This document shows, piece by piece, positions 33,780 through 48,640 of a DNA stretch of 64,000 nucleotides (within the stretch, counting starts at the first letter, position 1; each line of letters starts with the position of its first letter). This stretch comes from Thamnaconus septentrionalis. Its lineage: Eukaryota; Chordata; Actinopteri; Tetraodontiformes; Monacanthidae. The notes beneath the pieces are model-generated. The model made no database searches and had not been told where the DNA came from. It worked only from the letters and a program-made list of their open reading frames with translations. The stretch covers positions 22,534,501 through 22,598,500 of the forward strand of contig CM020506.1 of the NCBI GenBank assembly GCA_009823395.1. Reading direction: 5' to 3'. Position numbers and translations under genes: made by a program.

Positions 33780-34964
33780 ATACGGTGTGGCCTCTTCACT
33801 CCCCCTGGGAGCCTGAACATCCCAACAGTACCTTGTGTCGGAGATCCTGTGTGGTTACCTGCTGTTTGTATACACCCTGCTGCTTGCAGCTTGCTGGCGG
33901 TGAATGTCGGACGTCCAGAAAAAGCCCGCACCGGCAAGAGAGGAAGAAGGACGGCTGATGCCAGCAGCCAAAGACTTGGCTTAAGAGGGAACGTACCGGC
34001 AGGAATTTGATGGTCATGTAGTAGGGTCGGTGCAGGCGGGTTGCCTTGACCTTGTTGAACACACCATTGAGGTCCAGATATTCGGGAGGAACACCAAGAA
34101 GCTCCAGGGGTTCTTCCGTGGCTGACAAGACAAAAGGTAGAAGCGCGAGAGTGTTTCAGAGATAGTGGGAGAGGCAGAAAGAACTCCATCCAAGGATGTT
34201 GTTATTACTCCAGTCGATGTGTGGATTTATGCTTAACCAACCAGGGGTGTCCAAGGACTATGGGCACTTCAGCAGAGTCGAGAATGTGAAAAATGAGTAG
34301 ACTCACTGGAACTAGAGTTTGAGTGGTTTGGAGACGATGAATCGGAGTGACGCTCACCAGTAACCTCCCCCCTACTGGCGACCTTGGGCTTTTGCTGGGT
34401 ACTGCAAGGCATAGTGGCTAGGTTCCCCACAATACAGGCACACGTTGGAATCCCTCCTTCTTCGCTTCTCCTCCTCCGACAGGTGAGTATGATTGACTTG
34501 CATTGGTTCAGGTGCTCTGGATTCTGTTGGAATGGGTCTGGGCAGGTGGAAAGTTTCGGACGAGGAGGTTCCCGGACCCCAGCTGAGTGAGTGTTCGGCT
34601 GCACGTAACCTCAGCCTTTTATCGATCCAGGTTGACAGGTCCACCAGCTCATCAAAGGTAGGAGGGAGCTCGGTTGGAGTTAGAACACCAGGGAACATTG
34701 AGAGACAAACAATCTACAGGTTCCGGACTAACCAGCATATGGTTCTGGCGTGGGAAGGAGGGGTTCTTGTACAGACTCATGCTGGAAGTCTGGGCGAGCT
34801 GACTGTTGTGGTAACAGAGCAGTGGAGGGAGGTCGTAAATCCGGTGTCATCCGCTGTAGTTGGGCAGTCATGTCGCCGATGTTGGCAATGATGACTTCCA
34901 GGGAGCAGTGGACTGTCTCGAACTGGGACTGATGTCGACCCAGGAGTGCTCCTTACCTCACCTG
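33780..34964 (-). pseudogene. Gypsy gag and start of pol (3' half of split element)
   Basis: The minus strand from 34,964 downward begins with gag, GALLGRHQSQFETVHCSLEV. It continues through FVSQCSLVFPGVLTPTELPP, LSTWIDKRLRLRAAE and a CCHC knuckle CLYCGEPSHYALQYP, in which the last Cys is replaced by Tyr. It then jumps into pol (VPPEYLDLNGVFNKVKATRL, the entry to reverse transcriptase). The rest is deleted and frames shift repeatedly. The N-terminal codons of gag lie across the Harbinger insertion at 42,923-42,938, so the element was whole before that event. Confidence 0.87.
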
Positions 34965-36039
34965 GGGCCTCATGGACAAAAACGATCGTGGCTTTCATCG
35001 ATAAATTCCACGGGTCTCTCTTCACCACCTTCATCCAGCTCGGCTTCCACTATGAGCAGAAGCCCAAATATGACACTCCAGCTTCCCACTCCACCAGCGT
35101 ATGTTGTGTATACCGACACAGAGCTAGAACAACTTAGGAAACACTATTTTGACATGGCTCGCACTGGCAGTCAGGGAGATGTTGAGATGTCAAAGGAGCT
35201 GAGATGCAGGTACACAGGTCATGGAAACAAGCCATAGGCTTTCTTTGGTTTAGATGTTCATAGCAGACCTTGCGTTGAATAGTATTGTCCTGCGCCTTTG
35301 CTGTAAACTGCTAATAAAGTATTCAATCGTTCAAAGGTTGGTGAGGAACACTGTGGTCAGCATGATTTCGGTCTTTCGCGCGAAAAAGCAACGACATTCT
35401 CATACCGCCCTGAAGTACCCCTCCAAGCAGGAACTCCTGGCCATGATAGAAAGATTGGTGGAATTCTACCCAATGCTGCTGGATAAGGAAGGGCCTGTTA
35501 ATCACGTAAGTGACTCGAATGTTTGAATGTCATATATGTGCAGTACAGGACTTTTGAGTGACACAGATCATCTGCTTGGGGTGGGTCCATTTTCATTTTG
35601 TTAATTGCTGGAATAATATTTACACAGCTGGGTATCTTCGGCTACCTTCAGAAGAGGCTTCAAAATGTGAAGTCCCCCCAAAAGAAACAGAAGCCCACCA
35701 AAGCCCCTGTTGAAAAGAAGAAACGTCGCCTAGTTTACAGTGACAGTGATGTGCTGGCCGATGTGGATGATGATAATTTAAATTAAGCATCCACCATCCT
35801 TTTGGATCACACCTCTGACACTTCAGAAGATTTGAGGAGCCCTGATGATGTCCCTGTCCCCTCATGTAAGTCGAAATGTAATTTTGCTGTAGGCTATGCC
35901 CTCGGAACAACTGGAACCATTTGGTTCATTTGTACACTTTTGAGTTACTAACTGTTGTGTTATCTATGGAGAGGTTAAGGTGGTTTGAAATATGTTTTGC
36001 ACTTTTATTTTTCTGTTTCAGAGTCCAGTTCCAGACAGG

Positions 36040-36222
36040 TTAACCACTTGAACCCCATATAAACCGGACTCCCTCAGGGCTCAGTACTAATGTATTTTCT
36101 GTTATTGTGGGGAAAGCTTCCACTGAGAAGAGCTTAGACAAACTTGCGTTGTGAGCTTGTCGGTCTGCTATTCTCAGTGGGAGCTTTCCTCACAATACCA
36201 ATGCTGGGGTTTAAGTGGTTAA
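36040..36222. mobile_element. TTAA MITE with nested hairpin
   Basis: The 183-bp element runs from TTAACCACTTGAACCCC to GGGGTTTAAGTGGTTAA. Inside, a second inverted pair of about 26 bp (AAAGCTTCCACTGAGAA and its inverse) leaves the whole unit foldable. TTAA borders suggest piggyBac or Kolobok type. It sits immediately after the splice donor of the 15-nt exon, in an intron. Confidence 0.88.
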
Positions 36223-36496
36223 AAATGTTACGACCATTCACTGACATATCTGATACTGATTTTGTCTGGCATTTTAGTGGAGAGACAGAATCTACCAACA
36301 TTGACGGCCCTTGAAGCAGCAGAGAAAAAAATTTCTCAAACGGCACAGAAACGGCGTCCTTCAGAAGCAGAGTGTCCAGCACCACCGGCCCTTGGAGGGA
36401 AGAGTCCACCACAGAAGCGTAAAGCACAGAAAAAGAGTTTTCGAGCTGCACAGAAACCGAGTCCTTCAGAAGCAGAGAGTCTACCAGCACCACAGG

Positions 36497-36886
36497 TAAG
36501 GGTGTGCATTGGTCCTGCCCTCACGATTCAATTCGATTACGATTCATCAGGTCACGATTCGATTCAATTTGATTCTACGATGCATTGCGATGCATTACGA
36601 TTACAGATGTTCCGATAGTTTTTTTTCCTCCCCTGGACAATAAACGCAAAAAAGGGCTTTATAAGTTATTTGGATAATTTGATTTCTAAATACAATAATT
36701 GCAATGTAAATGTGTGAGTATGAGAGTGTATGCCTGTCAATATATTGGCCATTGCGTATAGACTACTCAGTTAGGTCTATACATTTATCATTAGATAGAG
36801 GCCAGAAAAGAACCAAATCGATTTGATGCATTGCAAAGCCCTGCATTGCCAATCCATTGCCTAATCAATTATTGTTGCCACCCCTA
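36497..36886. mobile_element. hAT-type MITE with 8-bp TSD
   Basis: The left end is TAAGGGTGTGCATTGG and the right end inverts to TTAGGGGTGGCAAC. A perfect duplication ACCACAGG lies at 36,489-36,496 and 36,887-36,894. The interior has ACGATTCGATTC-type repeats. Removing it and one TSD copy joins ...LPAPQ to AVGVREDDR in frame, so it landed inside a coding exon. Confidence 0.92.
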
Positions 36887-36971
36887 ACCACAGGCCGTTG
36901 GAGTCAGAGAAGACGACCGAGCAGCAAAGATCTTTGAAGCCTACCCATGTTTCAAGGACCTTGATAATGTA

Positions 36972-39224
36972 TGGGGCTAATGTAGGCCCTCTCAAGGAGG
37001 TTTCCCCATTGCTTCATTGTGTCATTCTTAGAATTATCAATCATTCTCTATCAACAGGTTTTGTCCCTCATGCTTTCAAAGTGGCTGTAATCAAGCCTCT
37101 GATCAAAAAACCCAATTTGGACTCGAGTGTGCTTTCAAATTATAGGCCAATCTCGAACCTTCCGTTTCTCTCTAAGATCTTAAAAAAAGTTGTTGCTAGG
37201 CAGCTTGTGGACTTCGATGAACGACAGCAATCTATTTGAGGTTTGTCAGTCAGGCTTCAGAGTTGGACATAGCACTGAAACTGCATTGCTTAAGGTAAGT
37301 AATGATCTCTTGTGTGCATCTGACAGAGGTCTTCTCTCTGTTCTGGTCCTCCTAGATCTCAGTGCAGCATTTGATACAGTTGACCACAGCATTCTTTTTA
37401 GGAGATTAGAAAATGCTATTGGCATCAAGGATCGCGCCTTGGACTGGTTTGGATCTTACTTGTCTGACCGCTTTCAGTTTGTTCATGTTCATAATCATTC
37501 ATCATAACGTAGGAGGGTTAGTCATGGTGTCCCGCAAGGATCTGTACTTGGGCCACTCCTCTTCAACATCTACATGTCACCTCTTGGTGACATCATCAGA
37601 AAGCATAACATCAGTTTCCATTCCTATGCAGATGACACACAGCTGTACTTGTCTTTTAAGGCAAATGAGGCTCATCAGTTGGCCAAATTGGAATCTTGTC
37701 TTCGTGATGTCAGAACTTGGATGACACAGAATTTCTTGTTGCTTAATACCGATAAAACTGAGGTCATTATATTTGGTTCGCGAGAGAGTAGGGACAGAGC
37801 CTTTGATGGACAGGGTGGTCTATTTGGTACTACACCCAGTTCTACTGTGAGGAACCTTGGAGTCACTTTTGATCAGGACCCGACCTTTAATTCTCATATA
37901 CAGAATGTAGGGAGGTCAGCTTTCTTCCACTTAAGAAACATTGCCAAAATTCGAGGTTTTTTGTCCTTCAAAGACACTGAAAAAATAATCCATGCTTTTG
38001 TTACATCTAGGCTAGATTACTGTAACTCGGTACTAGCAGGATGCCCAAATTCGTCCCTTAGGACATTTAATTGCATTTAGGACAGTTAATCCAAAACTCT
38101 GCGGCACGATTGTTAACCGGAACTAGAAGGAGGCAGCATATTACTCCAATCTTAGCTTCCTTGCATTGGCTGCCTGTCAAATTTAGAATTGAATTTAAGA
38201 TTCTAGTTTTAACTTACAAAGCTCTTTATTTTCAGGCTCCTTCTTATATTAGGGGACTAATTGAACTTTATCATCCTCCAAGAGCCCTTCGCTCTGAGGA
38301 TTCAGGTCTTTTAGTTATCCCAAAAATTTCTAGAGTTAGGTCAGGAGGTAGGTGTTTCAGTTTCCTGGCACCTTTATTTTGGAATCATCTTCCAGCCTCG
38401 TGAGGGGGCAGACACAGTTAGTTTATTTAGGAGTAGACTTAAGACTTTCCTTTTTCTTAAAGCTTATAGTTAGATTCCATCCACTGTCAGTTAAGCTGCT
38501 ATAGGCTTACGCCGTGGAGGGAGATCTTTCGCTCCCATTACAGGGATTGTTGCTCTGTGCAGGCGGAGCTTCTATCACTCTCCTCACCCAATCAATCTTT
38601 GACTCTTCTGACTCTATCTACTCTGTCCAAACTAGCTCTCATTATGCTTTGTACAGTATGCTCGATATGCATGATACTGCCGCAGTCTCTGTGTCCGCGG
38701 CAGGTGATGACCACTGCGCCAGGAGCTGGATTGTGCTGTCCTGGGGGTCTTGGTGTCATCGCTTGTCCCACCACCACGCCTAGGACCTGGACTTGTCCTA
38801 TCGGCAGATTGTCCATCGAGCTAGGCTCTTGCCTTCCAAAGCATGGACACTTACAGCCCACGCGGACAGCAGCCTTGAATTATTTCCTATTCTTTGTGTT
38901 TATATCCGTTTTGTGAATGCCTGGTTGGTGTATCTGTTTTTCACTCTGTCCTGTCTGCCACCCTGGGTCACTCTGCTCCTTTCCCTCTTTCTCTGTATCT
39001 CCTCTATTTTTGTATTTCACCCCAACTATTCACAGGCAGATGATGGCCCTCTGGAGTCTGGTTCTGCCCTAGGTTTCTTCCCACAGGGGAGTTTTTCCCA
39101 GCCACTGTCGCATCTTGCTTGCTCCGGGGGCCCAGTTGGTTCTCTCTGATTGTATAAAGCGCTTTGAGACGCCTTTGGTTGTGATTTAGCGCTGTACAAA
39201 TAAAAGTTTATTATTATTATTATT
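36972..39224 (+). mobile_element. L2-clade LINE, 5'-truncated, with TSD
   Basis: The 2.25-kb insertion is flanked by ATAATGTA (36,964-36,971 and 39,225-39,232) and ends with an AATAAAAG and (TTA)n tail. The reverse transcriptase shows [74 protein letters not shown] and [14 protein letters not shown] (catalytic YADD near 37,630). Then [25 protein letters not shown] and [11 protein letters not shown] follow. The C-terminal LHWLPVKF and GGRCFSFLAPLFWNHLP precede a 3' UTR with the CGCTTTGAGACGCC element. A few stops and frameshifts inactivate it. Confidence 0.93.
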
Positions 39225-39234
39225 ATAATGTAAG

Positions 39235-39295
39235 CAATTAACCCCTTGAACCCTAGCATCCCTATTTAACCCTTTGAACCCTAACATCCTGAAAA
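39235..39295. repeat. Two 30-bp TTAA-type repeats
   Basis: TTAACCCCTTGAACCCTAGC and TTAACCCTTTGAACCCTAAC occur in tandem. They resemble the end of the TTAA MITE at 36,040, so this is probably the remnant of a related element. Confidence 0.5.
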
Positions 39296-39353
39296 CATCC
39301 AATCTACAAGCTCAGTGTGTCACAGCACGCTGCAAGGTTGTAGATTGGGTACA

Positions 39354-39622
39354 GGAACTGGGGCTTCGGTGGGCATCTGGTTCTTTTGGGGGGACTTCAC
39401 ATTTTGAATCCTCTTCTGAAGGTAGCTGAAGATACCCAGCTGTGTAAATATAATTCCATTAATTAACACAATGGAAATGATCCCACCCCAAGCAGATGAT
39501 CTGTGTCATTCAAAGGTCCTATACTGCACACATGAAATGCAAACATTCTAGTCACTTATATGTTTTAACAGGCCCTTATCTTGAAGCATTGGGTAAAACT
39601 TAACCAATCTTTCACTGCATTT
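39354..39622 (-). repeat. Inverted duplicate of exon 2-3 region
   Basis: In reverse complement this matches 35,448-35,712 at high identity, including the splice acceptor ATTTACACAG, GGGTATCTTC and CTTCAGAAGAGG, plus the AAGTCCCCCCAAAAGAA coding part. It lies in the intron before exon 6 of the same gene, in antisense orientation. Confidence 0.9.
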
Positions 39623-39769
39623 TAGGTGAAGGATGAGCTGAGGCGCATCCTCGACAAGGACAACCCAAGAGAAGTGAAGGAGCGGCTGGATGCCTTCTAT
39701 AGACTGGTGCAATTGTTCGCAGTGGTGAAGAAGGTCGTCAATCCACCAATGCCAACAGATAGAGGTATT

Positions 39770-40503
39770 TTATTTTGCTGTCTCTTACAATTCACAATTT
39801 GGGCATTGAGCAGATGCTTAATCCAGAGTGATTTACAGTAAGCAAGGGCAAAACAACGTATACATCCAAATGGTAATCTAGGATCATAAGTAAACCAAGA
39901 GTCTATACATCAGTCTACTCACATCTGTACATTGAAGCTATACACATACATACTGCAGCATTCTGGATCATCTGTAGAGGCTTAAAGGAGGAGTTCATAC
40001 ATTTTCAACCCATCTTCATATAATTGGTCCTCACAAATGTTCATGATAAAATGTCCCATTTTCCCCCCCACTTGGTCTGTCTCATAGAGGGCTTTGGACA
40101 TCATTGGAATTATAATTTCAATTTATATGTATGTATATATATATATATATGTGTGTGTGTATATATATATATATGTGTGTATATACATATGTATATATAT
40201 TTATATGTATATGTATATATACACTTTTTTTTGCGAGAATGATCGCTTTCAATATAAGATGGTAACTTTTCAGGAATTAAATGACTGGCATTTCTATTAG
40301 CTTGGATTCGCTATTTAGTTTCTGAACTGCCCACAGCCCTCCTATGAAACACAGACCAAGTGGGAAACAATGTGCTATTTTATCACGAACATTAGTGAAA
40401 ACCAATTATATGAAGATTTATTGGTCTGTCTCATAGAGGGCTTTGGACATCATCGTAATTATAATTTCAATTTATTAGATTTTATGTACATATGTATAAA
40501 TGT

Positions 40504-40584
<81 letters not shown>

Positions 40585-40660
40585 CTTGGCACAGCTGCAG
40601 CCTTAACTGCATATTCATACATATTTAAGCAGCTTTTCATTTGGTGTTTTCTTTAATATT
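39770..40660. other. Non-coding with two TA microsatellites
   Basis: (TA)n tracts lie at about 40,130-40,230 and 40,500-40,581. A repeated segment TTGGTCTGTCTCATAGAGGGCTTTGGACATCAT occurs at 40,073 and 40,421, each followed by TAATTATAATTTCAATTTA-like sequence and then a TA tract, suggesting a local duplication of about 350 bp. Confidence 0.75.
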
Positions 40661-40667
40661 AAAGACA

Positions 40668-41318
40668 ATGAAGAAGAGAAACTTCACCGAATGTGAGCTG
40701 GAAGCGCTTCTCTACGCTGTGGAAGCGCAAAAGACTATTTTATTTGGCACCCTGTTACCCGGGCTGACCAATAAGAGAAAACGTACGGAGTGGGAGAGTG
40801 TGTGTGAGTCCGTTAACGTCGCTAGATCCGAGGCTCGCACAATTTAAGACTTTAAAAAGAGGTGGTCAGATATCAAAATGGGCATCAAGCGGAGGACAGC
40901 TGCCTTTCGCAGAAGCGTGGCCCAACAGGATGAGGAAGAGGAGAGGGGAGACTCACCCCATTTTAGGAGAGGGTGGCATCCCTCATTGGGATGTCTGCCC
41001 TTTCTGGGGTGGTCGCAGCGCATTTGGGCAACTCAGACCACCCTCCAGGTAAAATTTTTATTTAATTTTAAATTCTATTGTTTTTATGGTTAAGGTAATA
41101 AAATAATGAACTGTTGGACATCGTTTACCAGGAGCAATGAAATATATTGACCAATATATTTGTTAAATTGATTTTATTATTTTGTTTTTGCAGTTGAATA
41201 CGACAAGACTGCTGCCTCCTCCAGCGCGTCCCTGCCACCGGGACTGAAAGAGCGCCTAGACAGTCTCACAAATGTTTTAATTTCAATTAATGAGAGCATT
41301 AAAGATTTGAAAAAGTGA
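40668..41318 (+). pseudogene. Myb/SANT-like (NAIF1-type) Harbinger partner protein
   Basis: The ATG at 40,668 begins MKKRNFTECELEALLYAVEA, followed by LFGTLLPGLTNKRKRTEWES and, after one in-frame TAA, DFKKRWSDIKMGIKRRTAA. These are the three helices with conserved Trp of the Myb/SANT-like DNA-binding domain found in Harbinger second ORFs and NAIF1. A frameshift near 40,975 is followed by SALSGVVAAHLG-like sequence. The second exon (41,194-41,318) encodes ASLPPGLKERLDSLTNVLIS and ends at TGA. In PIF/Harbinger elements this protein binds the transposase and brings it to the nucleus and transposon ends. It converges with the transposase gene. Confidence 0.82.
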
Positions 41319-41336
41319 ATCATGTGTCCTTGCCTT

Positions 41337-42600
41337 TTACATTGTTAAAATGACATTTTCCTGAGCTTGAATGGCCTCCCGGCCAGGAAACACGTGAATT
41401 GGGCCAGCTTTAGGCCCCTCGGGTTGGTAGGTGTGCTGCTGTGGTAGTGGTACGCCATGCTGGTGTGCCATATTGTGGAGGACGCCACATGCCATCACAA
41501 TACGACACACTTCGTCAGGTTGATAGAGCAGCACACCTTCAGCCCTATCAAGGCAGCACCACCGTGTCTTGACCGTGCCCGCTGTCCTCTCCATGACTGA
41601 CCGAGTCAATGAATGGGCTTCATTGTACCTTTCGGTCAGTCAGCGGTGTCATCAGCCATGTCCTCAAGGGGTAGCCACGGTCACTTGAGGTCGATTAACA
41701 TCGGCTTCCATTGAGTTATTTTAGCACTAAACCAACCAATGATACTGTAGCTGTACAAAGGCCACAATGCGAACTTCAAGTCACTAAACATAACGCACAT
41801 CTTTTATTGATTTGGGGCTACTTAACACAGAGAAAATCGGTGGCTTTAGAAAAAGGTCTGAAAGTTTGTCCCAAAAAAAAGCATGTTTTACAAAAAATAT
41901 TCATGATAGTTTTAAATAAGAGGCACACAAACATAGTGCACGTCAAGGGATTAATATAAGGACAATTCACTTCTTACACACCAGCCATCGTGCACCATGC
42001 CAGCTTGCAGTAGGTTGACCAGTCCACCTCGCCACAATATTGAGGAGTTTCATGCGCGTATCACAGATGATCTGTACATTGATCGAATGAAAATGCTTAT
42101 GGTTGACGTAAACATATCCATCCTGTGATGGTGCCTTTATTGCAATGTGCGTGCAGTCGTTAGCTCCGATTATATTTCGAAATCCAGCTTTCGCTTCAAA
42201 TTGCGTTTTAATTTTGGCCTGGCCAACTGCATTATATGGGAATTTGATGTACCTGGATGACATGCGGATGATTCCGTCCCACACAGCTGGCATGGTTTGG
42301 CTCAGGGTAGACTGGTTCAGCCCCGATCAGTCTGCCAGCTCTCGTTGGAAAGTCCCTGTTGCCAGGAACCCAAACGTGGTCAGCACCTGTGTGGGTACAG
42401 TAATGCATGGCTCCTCTTTGTATAACGCTCCAATAACGGATGCAGCTCGGCCCACAGTTCTAATAGAACTGCCCTGGGGAACCTGAAATGGCTTTGGAGC
42501 CAGTTGTCATCATTGGCCAGAAGATCCTGACGGTCTCTCTCTCTATATATATATATGTTCTCTCTCTACGGATTGCTCCGTTTGTCATGTCCTCCAAGAG
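41337..42600 (-). pseudogene. PIF/Harbinger transposase (HARBI1-like), broken
   Basis: On the minus strand the N-terminal part reads, across frames, FPRAVLLELWAELHPLLERY. It is followed by MPAVWDGIIRMSSRYIKFPY, FRNIIGANDCTHIAIKAPSQ (first catalytic Asp) and VNHKHFHSINVQIICDTRMK. The GSTHD region with the second Asp is scrambled. After an AT-rich gap (about 41,700-41,960) comes GYPLRTWLMTPL, then SVMERTAGTVKTRWCCLDRA (third acidic residue) and VCRIVMACGVLHNMAHQHG. It is a DDE nuclease of the DDE_Tnp_4 type and now inactive. Confidence 0.85.
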
Positions 42601-42922
42601 TGCCAATGACGCCATTATTAGCGTTATTTTCTATACTTCCCTGTGCATGCTTTTACACCCACAAATCTAATTGCAGACACGTGAATGTGATAACTGTTCA
42701 TCAAAGCCTATTTGATATAGCTTCAGAAATCCTTTCCCGACATAACCAGTTAGTGTCGCCAACGGACCACCAAGGGTAGAAATGTACTTACGCAAGTTAA
42801 AGACTTGACGTGAAGCACCGCACATTTCCATGGTCAAAAATGTTTTGTACATCTGAACATAAACGTGGAAACGGGCGTACAACGGGTTTTTGTGCGTACG
42901 TACTTTTAGTACATGAGGCCCC

Positions 42923-43059: not shown

Positions 43060-44017
43060 AATAACAAAAATAATAATTAAGGTTTGCCAAATGCTTTGTC
43101 TTACAGGAGGATGCAGACAGGGGAATGCAGTCTGATGGTGACGGTGAGGAGGGAGGAAGCACCGAGGAGAGTGTTCCTGCTGATGACATCAGTGATGAGG
43201 ACAAACCACCACATACACCAAAAAAAAGGAGATCTGCACTTGTTAACCTCCTTGGAGAAACATTCAAGCACGCCAGATCTTCCCTGACCCCATCGTCACC
43301 TAGCTCCAAGGCTGAAAAGGAGGTCCAACGATATCGAGATTCCCCACCTCTACCACTGTCTGATGAACCGTTGGGTTGGTGGAAATCTGAGGCATGCAAG
43401 TACCCACACCTCGCTAAACTTGCCCAAAGGTACCTGTGTGTCCCAGGGACTAGTGTGCCATCAGAGAGAATTTTCTCCACTGCTGGTGACATAATCTCTG
43501 CCCAGAGCATCTGAGCATGCTGATCAGTTACTGTTCCTCAAGAAAAATATGCCTGCCTGATCTGTCCAGGTTAAAATAAAGCGCTCTATTTTTTTGTTGT
43601 TGTAAAATTGTAAAATGTGCCCAATATTTTATTTAATTCTGGTATTCTTATTTTTATTTCCTATTGTTAAACTAAAACGGGCCCAAGTTTAGATAAAACA
43701 AGTTGCTACTGTTTACGTTATCAGAAAGCACTGTCCTCGTTTACGTGAAAATTTTTGATGTTCATGCACTTTAATATGTTTGATTGTGCAGTGCAATTTT
43801 TTTGTACATTTTACGAAGTTTTGTAATAAATGCAAGATCACAGGCATTTTCCTTTTTATGGATATTTTTTTCTTTTTCAGTCACATATCGTGGGCAAAAT
43901 TTCTTGCAATATATTGAATATCGAAGATATCGTGTATCGTGATATTATCATTATCGTGGGCAAAATTTCGTCACAGTATCGAATCGTGGGTTACCCGTAT
44001 TGCCCCACCCCTACCAC
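43060..44017 (+). pseudogene. hAT transposase C-terminus and 3' end
   Basis: An acceptor (TCTTACAG) at 43,108 opens an exon with EDADRGMQSDGDGEEGG. An acidic linker and then the hATC dimerisation region follow (EVQRYRDSPPLPLSDEPLGW, WKSEACKYPHLAKLAQRYLC, SVPSERIFSTAGDIISAQS). One stop follows and then EHADQLLFLKKNM. The 3' end is rich in ATCGTGGGCAAAATTTCGTC repeats and closes with TATTGCCCCACCCCTA at about 44,017. The N-terminal exons and left terminus are missing. Confidence 0.83.
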
Positions 44018-46879: not shown

Positions 46880-48640
46880 AAATGAGCCAGAAACAGAGTT
46901 CACTGGAGAGTTTCTTTGGAAAGGGCAAACGAGACAACGATGAGACAACAGAGGGGTCACACACTGCCTGCTAAAAGAAAGCTGCATTTAAAAGAAAATA
47001 CCAAGATTCCTACCTGTGTTACGGGTTCATCGCAAAAGGTGATTCACAAGCCCCACACCCAGCTCTGTGTAATATGTGGTGACAGACTTGCTAATTAAGC
47101 CATGAAACCATCAAAACTGCCGGCACATGGAGACAAAACACCCAGCATTGAAAGAAAAGCCCTTAGAATATTTTGAAAGAAGAAAACGGGAACATGAAGG
47201 ACAGAAACAGTTATTGAAGGCCACTACTTCAGCAAATATGTCTGCGCTAAAAGCATCATTCCTGGTCGCGGACCACATTGCTAAAGCTAAGAAGCCCTTT
47301 ACTATTGGGGAAGAACTGATTTTGCCTGCTACAAAGGACATTTGCAGCAAACTTTTCGGAGAGGCTGCAGTAAAAAAGGTTGAAAACATCCCCCTTTCGG
47401 CGAGCACAATAACAAGAAGAATTAATGAAATAGCCAGAGGACATCGAGGCACAGTTACTTGAGAGGATTAATGAGTCACCATGGTACGCGACTCAGGTGG
47501 ATGAATCCACAAATGACAACAAAGAAATATTGCGCGTTTTTGTGGGATACGTTTTTCAGTAGGATGTACATGAGGATTTGCTATGTGCACTATTTCTGCC
47601 AACTAACACCACAGCTGCAGAGGTATTCAAGTCCTTGAACGAGTACATATCAGGGAGGCTTAATTGGTCGCACTGTGTCGCTGTATGCACGGAAGGAGCG
47701 GATGCGATGACTGGGCGGCTTTCAGGTCTGACAACGTGGATCAAGGAGGTCGCCTCTGAATGTGAGTCCACGCACTGTGTCATCCATAGGGAAAGCCACC
47801 TGAGCTTAACAGCGTTTTGCAAGATGTGATAAAAATTATTAATCACAGAAGAGCACATGCCCTGAATTCACGTCTGTTCGAACAGCTCTGTGAAGAGATG
47901 GATGCAGAACATGGACGCCTTCTCTTGTACACAGAAGTGAGATGGCTTTCAAGAGGTAAATTGCTGGCAAGAGTTTTTGAGTTACGAGAGTCACTGCAGA
48001 GATTTTTCCTGGAAAAACAGTCGCCACTGGCAGCATACTTCAGTGACGCTGATTGGATCTCGAAACTTGCTTACCTGTGTGACATTTTTAACCTGCTCAA
48101 TGAACTCAATCTCTCACTTCAGGGGAAAATGACAACCGTTTTCAAGTTGGCAGATAAGGTTGCTGCATTCAAAGGCAAATTAGAGTTATGGAGACAGACA
48201 GTGACCACAGGGACATTTGACATGTTTCACATAGTAGCAGGGATTATGGAGGAGACTGAGTTTGAACCTTCATTCACCCAGTTAGTGCATGATCACCTGT
48301 TGCAGCTTTCAAAAGAGTTTGAGCATTACTTCCCCATCACAAAAGACCCCAGGCTGGGGAAGGAATGGATCCGGAACCCATTTGTCAACAAGCCAGGGGA
48401 ATCAACTCTAACCCTACAGGAAGAGGAACAACTACTTGAGATTGCAAATGATGGTGGCCTTCAATCCATGTTTGAAACAACTTCAAATCTCTTTGCATTC
48501 TGGAGTAAAGTCAAAGCAGAACATCCTGACATTGCCACAAAAGCACTGACAGTCCTGACAGTCCTGCTTTTCAACCTCTTATCTTTGTGGGGGGGGGAGT
48601 TCTGCAGTAACAGCAACCAAAACAAGACTACGGAGTAGAC
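46880..48640 (+). pseudogene. hAT transposase (ZBED5/SCAND3-like), few breaks
   Basis: The ATG at 46,882 opens [20 protein letters not shown]. After a frame break comes a BED finger, CVICGDRLAN, KLPAHMETKHP (C-x2-C, H-x4-H). Helical region: ATTSANMSALKASFLVADHI and FTIGEELILPATKDICSKLF. Catalytic-core landmarks are ATQVDESTND (first Asp), VAVCTEGADAMTG (second Asp region, E-G in place of the usual D-G), CVIHRESHLSLT, EVRWLSRGKLLARVFELRES, and hATC-like NPFVNKPGESTLTLQEEEQL. The 273-codon stretch 47,817-48,638 is still open. About four frameshifts or stops disrupt the rest. The 3' terminus with GGTTGGGGACCACTG is at about 48,936. Confidence 0.9.

Follow-up and report, generated by a model that had tools for sequence, protein, structure and literature searches.

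A Harbinger-type transposon of Thamnaconus septentrionalis encloses a fragment of a multi-exon teleost gene, probably by capture

How does a gene with several introns come to lie inside a DNA transposon? The question is raised by a locus of the fish Thamnaconus septentrionalis, which we analyzed within a window of 64,000 nucleotides (contig CM020506.1 of assembly GCA_009823395.1, here C6, positions 22,534,501–22,598,500) and against the whole genome (474 Mb in 132 contigs). A reading made from the sequence alone had proposed an unknown six-exon gene carried between the ends of a PIF/Harbinger element, which would be either a captured host gene or an undescribed accessory gene of Harbinger. We consider it probable that one PIF/Harbinger-type copy holds a piece of genomic DNA, introns included, from a multi-exon teleost gene, which was captured, likely by transduplication. 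The whole unit, 34964–42922, appears to consist of this fragment, a Myb gene, and a DDE transposase, each of them broken (table 1); the exons of the fragment and the Myb open reading frame lie on the same (plus) strand, the one feature in keeping with their proposed joint transcription.

The fragment derives from a family of teleost proteins (si:dkey-174c13.2 type) of ~520 residues with no Pfam family, which is widespread among fish but unstudied; full members have a SAM-like N-terminus and a C-terminal domain, both of which are lacking in the window. The best family matches share 41–45% identity over 90–99% of the read-through query. The conserved central parts of the family are present as exons E1, E2, E3, E5, and E6, all with GT/AG borders and joinable phases. 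At E <= 10, E1 matches 130, E2 132, E3 126, E5 122, and E6 121 of 133 family proteins, counts that reflect family membership and not independence, as the proteins were gathered using the fragment and its relatives; the best E values are 2e-33 to 8e-14 for E1, E2, E5, and E6, and 2e-11 for E3. The break near the E2/E3 border is also present in a family copy on contig C12. The claim of six exons with matching phases thus held for these five; the proposed exon 4, which contains a 69-nt stretch twice (copies 81% alike), was rejected as an exon of this gene, matching only 8 of the 133 proteins with a best E of 2.4. The two helical modules pointed out earlier correspond to family residues ~88–208 and ~313–383, which are predicted to be mostly helical in a model of family protein P0002. 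No convincing tblastn match was found in the window for the family N-terminus, for the TQARHYKTL...RRAFID middle (P0002 ~270–312), or for the last ~140 residues, and the locus, as its sequence reads, is a fragment of a family member and not a member gene. As the introns are retained, the source was DNA and not a spliced copy.

Table 1. Features of the Harbinger unit, in window positions.
Feature	Positions	Strand	Basis or remark
Whole Harbinger unit with probably captured fragment	34964..42922 (7,959 bp)	.	Ends and gag flanks
Harbinger left end	34964..34999	+	Matches left end of copy C12:1108323
E1, family residues ~68 to 140	35004..35209	+	tblastn homology, splice borders
E2, family residues ~140–195	35338..35508	+	tblastn homology, splice borders
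E3, family residues ~195–260	35628..35865	+	In-frame TAA at 35784–35786
Exon 4 of the sequence-only reading	36278..36495	+	Splice-like borders, no family homology
E5, family residues ~313–335	36894..36968	+	tblastn homology, splice borders
L2-type long interspersed nuclear element (LINE) piece (RVT_1), 2.25 kb, at E5 donor	36972..39224	+	8-bp flanking duplication ATAATGTA
Inverted second copy of E2-intron-E3 piece (35449–35711), 258 bp	39356..39613	-	86% identical; before E6
E6, family residues ~335–383	39626..39766	+	tblastn homology, splice borders
Myb/SANT-like gene start	40668..40847	+	PF13873, E 1.4e-8 (Pfam); in-frame stop breaks gene
DDE_Tnp_4 transposase, two open pieces (41340–41639, 41970–42326)	41340..42326	-	Broken; relatives in genome
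Harbinger right end	42705..42922	-	Genome matches to last 123 nt

That the fragment is carried between Harbinger ends was confirmed: both ends match the ends of other copies, and the sequence outside them reads as a single gag start in two parts. The left end, taken with its three flanking bases (34961–34999), is 89.7% identical over 39 bp to its counterpart in copy C12:1108323, and the last 123 nt of the right end (42800–42922) have at least 40 genome matches at 80–100% identity, the window's own counted; this is a lower bound, 40 of 75 candidates having been scored. In all 20 right ends that were cut out, the window's own included, the element starts with GGGGCCTCATG or a one-base variant. 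Within the window, a search for this terminal motif allowing two mismatches gave two matches, both exact, against 1.05 expected; window-only evidence is weak, because 30 of 100 shuffles reach two. Judged by the genome copies, however, both ends are certainly genuine. They resemble each other over 17 of 19 nt, where the likeness stops, and each is conserved between copies by itself, the left over 39 and the right over 123 nt or more. One might read so short a likeness as the mark of a composite, with the left end and the right part derived from two different Harbinger copies and old genomic DNA, the fragment, lying between them; but in the complete C12 copy, too, left and right ends diverge from each other in this manner, and both outer flanks belong to a single gag start, so that we give this account hardly any credence.

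Short copies of the Harbinger family to which the unit belongs number in the dozens in this genome. For 17 of the 40 listed right ends, a partner was found among 42 left-end matches, giving spans of 0.93–4.14 kb with a median of 1.86 kb, as against 7.96 kb for the window unit; the other 23, the window's own among these, are unpaired. A transposase match lies within 1.5 kb of 22 of the 40, and copy C12:1108323 is ~1.27 kb long with much of its coding part missing. A 3-bp target duplication was found neither at the window unit nor at the C12 copy or copy L045 (copies read at both ends), and the outer flanks of the latter two are complementary (CCT/AGG in C12, ACA/TGG in L045). The Harbinger family (the window unit, L033, and L045) seems to insert without target duplication and with complementary flank triplets. 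The triplet before the 20 right ends is frequently CCT or CCA. The unit keeps remains of the two proteins expected of PIF/Harbinger in the wide sense, a DDE_Tnp_4 transposase, whose pieces match PF13359 at E 7.8e-10 and 2.5e-8 (Pfam), and a Myb/SANT-like second protein, both genes being broken by stops and frame changes. We file it as PIF/Harbinger in this wide sense only, because it has no 3-bp duplication and because Harbinger-related elements with 0-, 2-, or 3-bp target duplications exist (PMC12730594).

Within the unit, the fragment occupies the place that in the C12 copy is taken by a leader of ~250 bp between the left end and the Myb gene: the Myb start lies ~283 bp inside the left end there, versus 5.7 kb in the window, and nothing in 35000–40667 of the window matches the leader of C12. 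The family homology of E1 begins within ~5–30 nt of the left end, its low-complexity start being uncertain. Gene-derived sequence is thus found between the ends of the element, one of the features by which transduplication is recognized. On the outside, the unit lies within the beginning of a Ty3-type gag that runs on the minus strand, two parts of which flank the two ends: in that orientation, ATGGAACCAGCG (MEPA) closes the right flank and the left flank continues VR*GALLGRH, and the N-terminal gag piece is 52, 46, and 48% identical to three gag proteins. The simplest reading of these flanks would be that the unit was inserted whole in a single event, either with a minor deletion at the target or into a gag that was already damaged, and we infer that the unit already carried the fragment on entering gag. 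The reverse order, in which a normal Harbinger sat in gag first and its leader later took in the fragment through recombination or repair, so that the composite never moved together, is unlikely: the C12-type leader is absent and not split around the fragment, the family homology starts beside the left end, and no separate insertion borders were seen. It would agree, on the other hand, with the genome search yielding just one copy that bears the fragment, and other mobile pieces, such as the L2 element, did enter the unit.

Whether the gene is a regular part of Harbinger was addressed through its relatives in this genome. A search with P0002 gave 23 exon matches, distributed over seven places of which the window is one; of the other six loci, C12 holds three (334–467 kb), C8 two (24–127 kb), and C15 one (1.32 Mb). 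The 10–20 kb surrounding each of these six contain no match to the transposase, the Myb gene, or the right end, and the nearest listed Harbinger features are a right end at 251 kb, a left end at 252 kb, and a transposase at 353 kb, the lists of right-end, left-end, and transposase matches being lower bounds. Their identity to the window exons is 34–64%, with no clear likeness in DNA, so that none of the six is the direct source. Some of the family copies are situated in regions at contig ends (L021, L026, L027, and L030, at C12 ~407–411 kb and C8 ~33–36 kb) where reading frames resembling fish NACHT/NLR immune genes also occur.

The earlier proposal to ask by tblastn whether the exons always adjoin a transposase is answered, for this genome, by one of seven family loci. 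Homologues away from Harbinger, which that proposal counted against a carried gene, do exist here, but the fragment shares the borders of Harbinger and has none of its own. Capture, one of the two options offered, is supported, as the family loci elsewhere lie at least 250 kb from the listed Harbinger matches. Among the matches listed, the window copy alone of the family would be linked to Harbinger in this genome; it is also placed against the left end, and it is taken as the captured piece. The captured piece would be the fragment pressed against the left end, its frame broken and coding sequence lacking at either end as well as in the middle; the route was most likely faulty repair of an excision gap that copied another locus, that is, transduplication.

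The event looks like a one-off capture rather than the acquisition of a standard third gene. The other option, an accessory gene, holds that some lineage of fish Harbinger normally has this gene as its third protein and that the window contains a decayed member. Consistent with it, the fragment shares the space between the ends with the two Harbinger genes, its sequence is not close to that of the other copies in this genome, and the family protein tree conflicts with fish relationships; fish Harbinger elements are known to pass between species (PMC9179366), and third genes are known from related fungal and oomycete elements (PMC12730594). However, the link to Harbinger is found in one of seven family loci and in one of 40 listed right ends, and the gap between left end and E1 is too small for a promoter or a first exon. 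A Harbinger domain occurs in none of 120 family proteins (precomputed Pfam column), and none was recognized in the overhangs of 133 models, which were read by eye only and not searched. With the six other loci away from the listed Harbinger matches, this genome lends the accessory-gene option no support, and we regard it as quite improbable.

Several observations weigh against a captured fragment that moved as cargo. The absence of the leader is judged against a single copy (C12). The gag flanks, if joined directly, are 1 nt short versus the spacing in P0134, which may be without its true start, and 25 nt short versus that in P0135 and P0136, and the target duplication looked for at the window unit was not seen. 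There is no source copy among the six other family loci, at their 34–64% identity to the exons, and a single fragment-bearing Harbinger copy was found, so that a co-movement of cargo and element would rest on one copy.

The matching phases that had suggested an intact gene conceal an in-frame TAA in E3, with family homology on both sides of it, and the LINE that separates E5 from E6. Copies of ATAATGTA flank the LINE at 36964–36971 and 39225–39232, and because it thereby duplicated E5 sequence, it was inserted after the exons were present; a relative in L028 is 96% identical. With the stop in E3, the first, middle, and last protein parts missing, and the LINE at the E5 donor, the copy is to all appearance dead, and the fragment presumably makes no protein now. 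In the intron before exon 4, window 36040–36222 starts with TTAACCACTTGAACCCC and closes with its near reverse complement (read by eye), and resembles a small inverted-repeat element. Immediately ahead of the Myb gene, window 39985–40595 is palindromic and repeat-rich, with inverted arms at 40012–40100 and 40328–40417 (80%) and AT repeats, and may perhaps be another. Outside the unit, 43077–43514 and 47106–48638 contain reading frames that presumably represent pieces of hAT/ZBED-type transposases.

The source family itself shows an unusual distribution. Among named-source proteins with alignments of at least 200 residues, members within one genus mostly share 35–58%, with some recent pairs at 79–100%. 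Between distant fish, Alosa and Fundulus are identical at 504 of 528 aligned pairs (95.5%, gaps uncounted; 88.1% in gapped local alignment), Alosa and Gasterosteus at 485 of 521 (93.1%; 94.9%), and Fundulus and Gadus at 503 of 541 (93.0%; 92.1%), as compared with 77.3% between Alosa and its order-mate Engraulis; five pairs of cichlid, cyprinid, or characiform genera are at 92.3–97.2%. Even the disordered hinge of Alosa is matched at 97 of 102 positions by Fundulus, and at 96 of 106 by Gasterosteus, but at 82 of 104 by Paralichthys. In a quick tree of the window fragment and 91 proteins, hand-chosen from the 133, fish orders are intermixed, and the fragment is a long branch with no firm place. 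Three taxonomy-based groupings, named after the first tree was seen, were rejected on 24 chosen rows under a model without mixture (approximately unbiased test, p 1.6e-4, 5e-40, and 6e-9), and some clades, for example the cyprinids, look vertical. The near-identity between distant fish and the conflict of the tree with taxonomy suggest horizontal transfer of the family; hidden paralogy can produce tree conflict, but less easily near-identical hinges. Proteins near-identical across distantly related fish are P0054, P0066, P0070, P0098, P0102, P0020, P0087, P0002, and P0003, none of them in the window. The Collichthys gene models P0007, P0027, and P0041 are family models fused to pieces of another fish protein (SVTGEILCIDGTRKVLKKIYGDG...), possibly a neighboring mobile gene. 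That transposons, including a Harbinger lineage with the gene as its third, spread the SAM-like family between distant fish, the window retaining one decayed unit of such a vehicle, is a proposal to which we attach little probability.

In comparison with known systems, the kind of event is already known, and the window unit would be a vertebrate case of the type of Turmoil-1 of Caenorhabditis elegans. According to its description (PMC2572040), Turmoil-1 is likewise an animal Harbinger with pieces of protein-coding genes beside its ends, termed transduplication: pieces of rsp-2 and cpg-3 lie inside long inverted ends, and there are eight further element fragments. The window unit differs in its several-exon piece with introns, its short left end, its one known copy, and its fish host. 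With the teleost two-gene Harbinger it has in common a DDE transposase and a Myb-like protein (PMC9179366), and it differs by the additional gene fragment, by ends alike over 17 of 19 nt, where the same source gives terminal inverted repeats of 25–50 bp, and by the missing 3-bp duplication; one such element passed between salmonids and carp (PMC9179366). The TET/JBP genes of fungal and the SET genes of oomycete Harbinger are, as in the window, further genes inside the element, but they are whole and occur in several families (PMC12730594), whereas the window has a broken fragment, found once. In plants, DNA transposons commonly take up pieces of coding genes; for animals, such capture was called unknown when Turmoil-1 was reported in 2008 (PMC2572040). 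We found no vertebrate Harbinger with captured gene pieces among the open-licence papers listed. A fish Harbinger with several exons and their introns would thus be a vertebrate case of gene capture by a DNA transposon in animals. If it is true that the family travels between fish on transposons, this would offer a testable cause for its many unexplained copies and tree conflicts.

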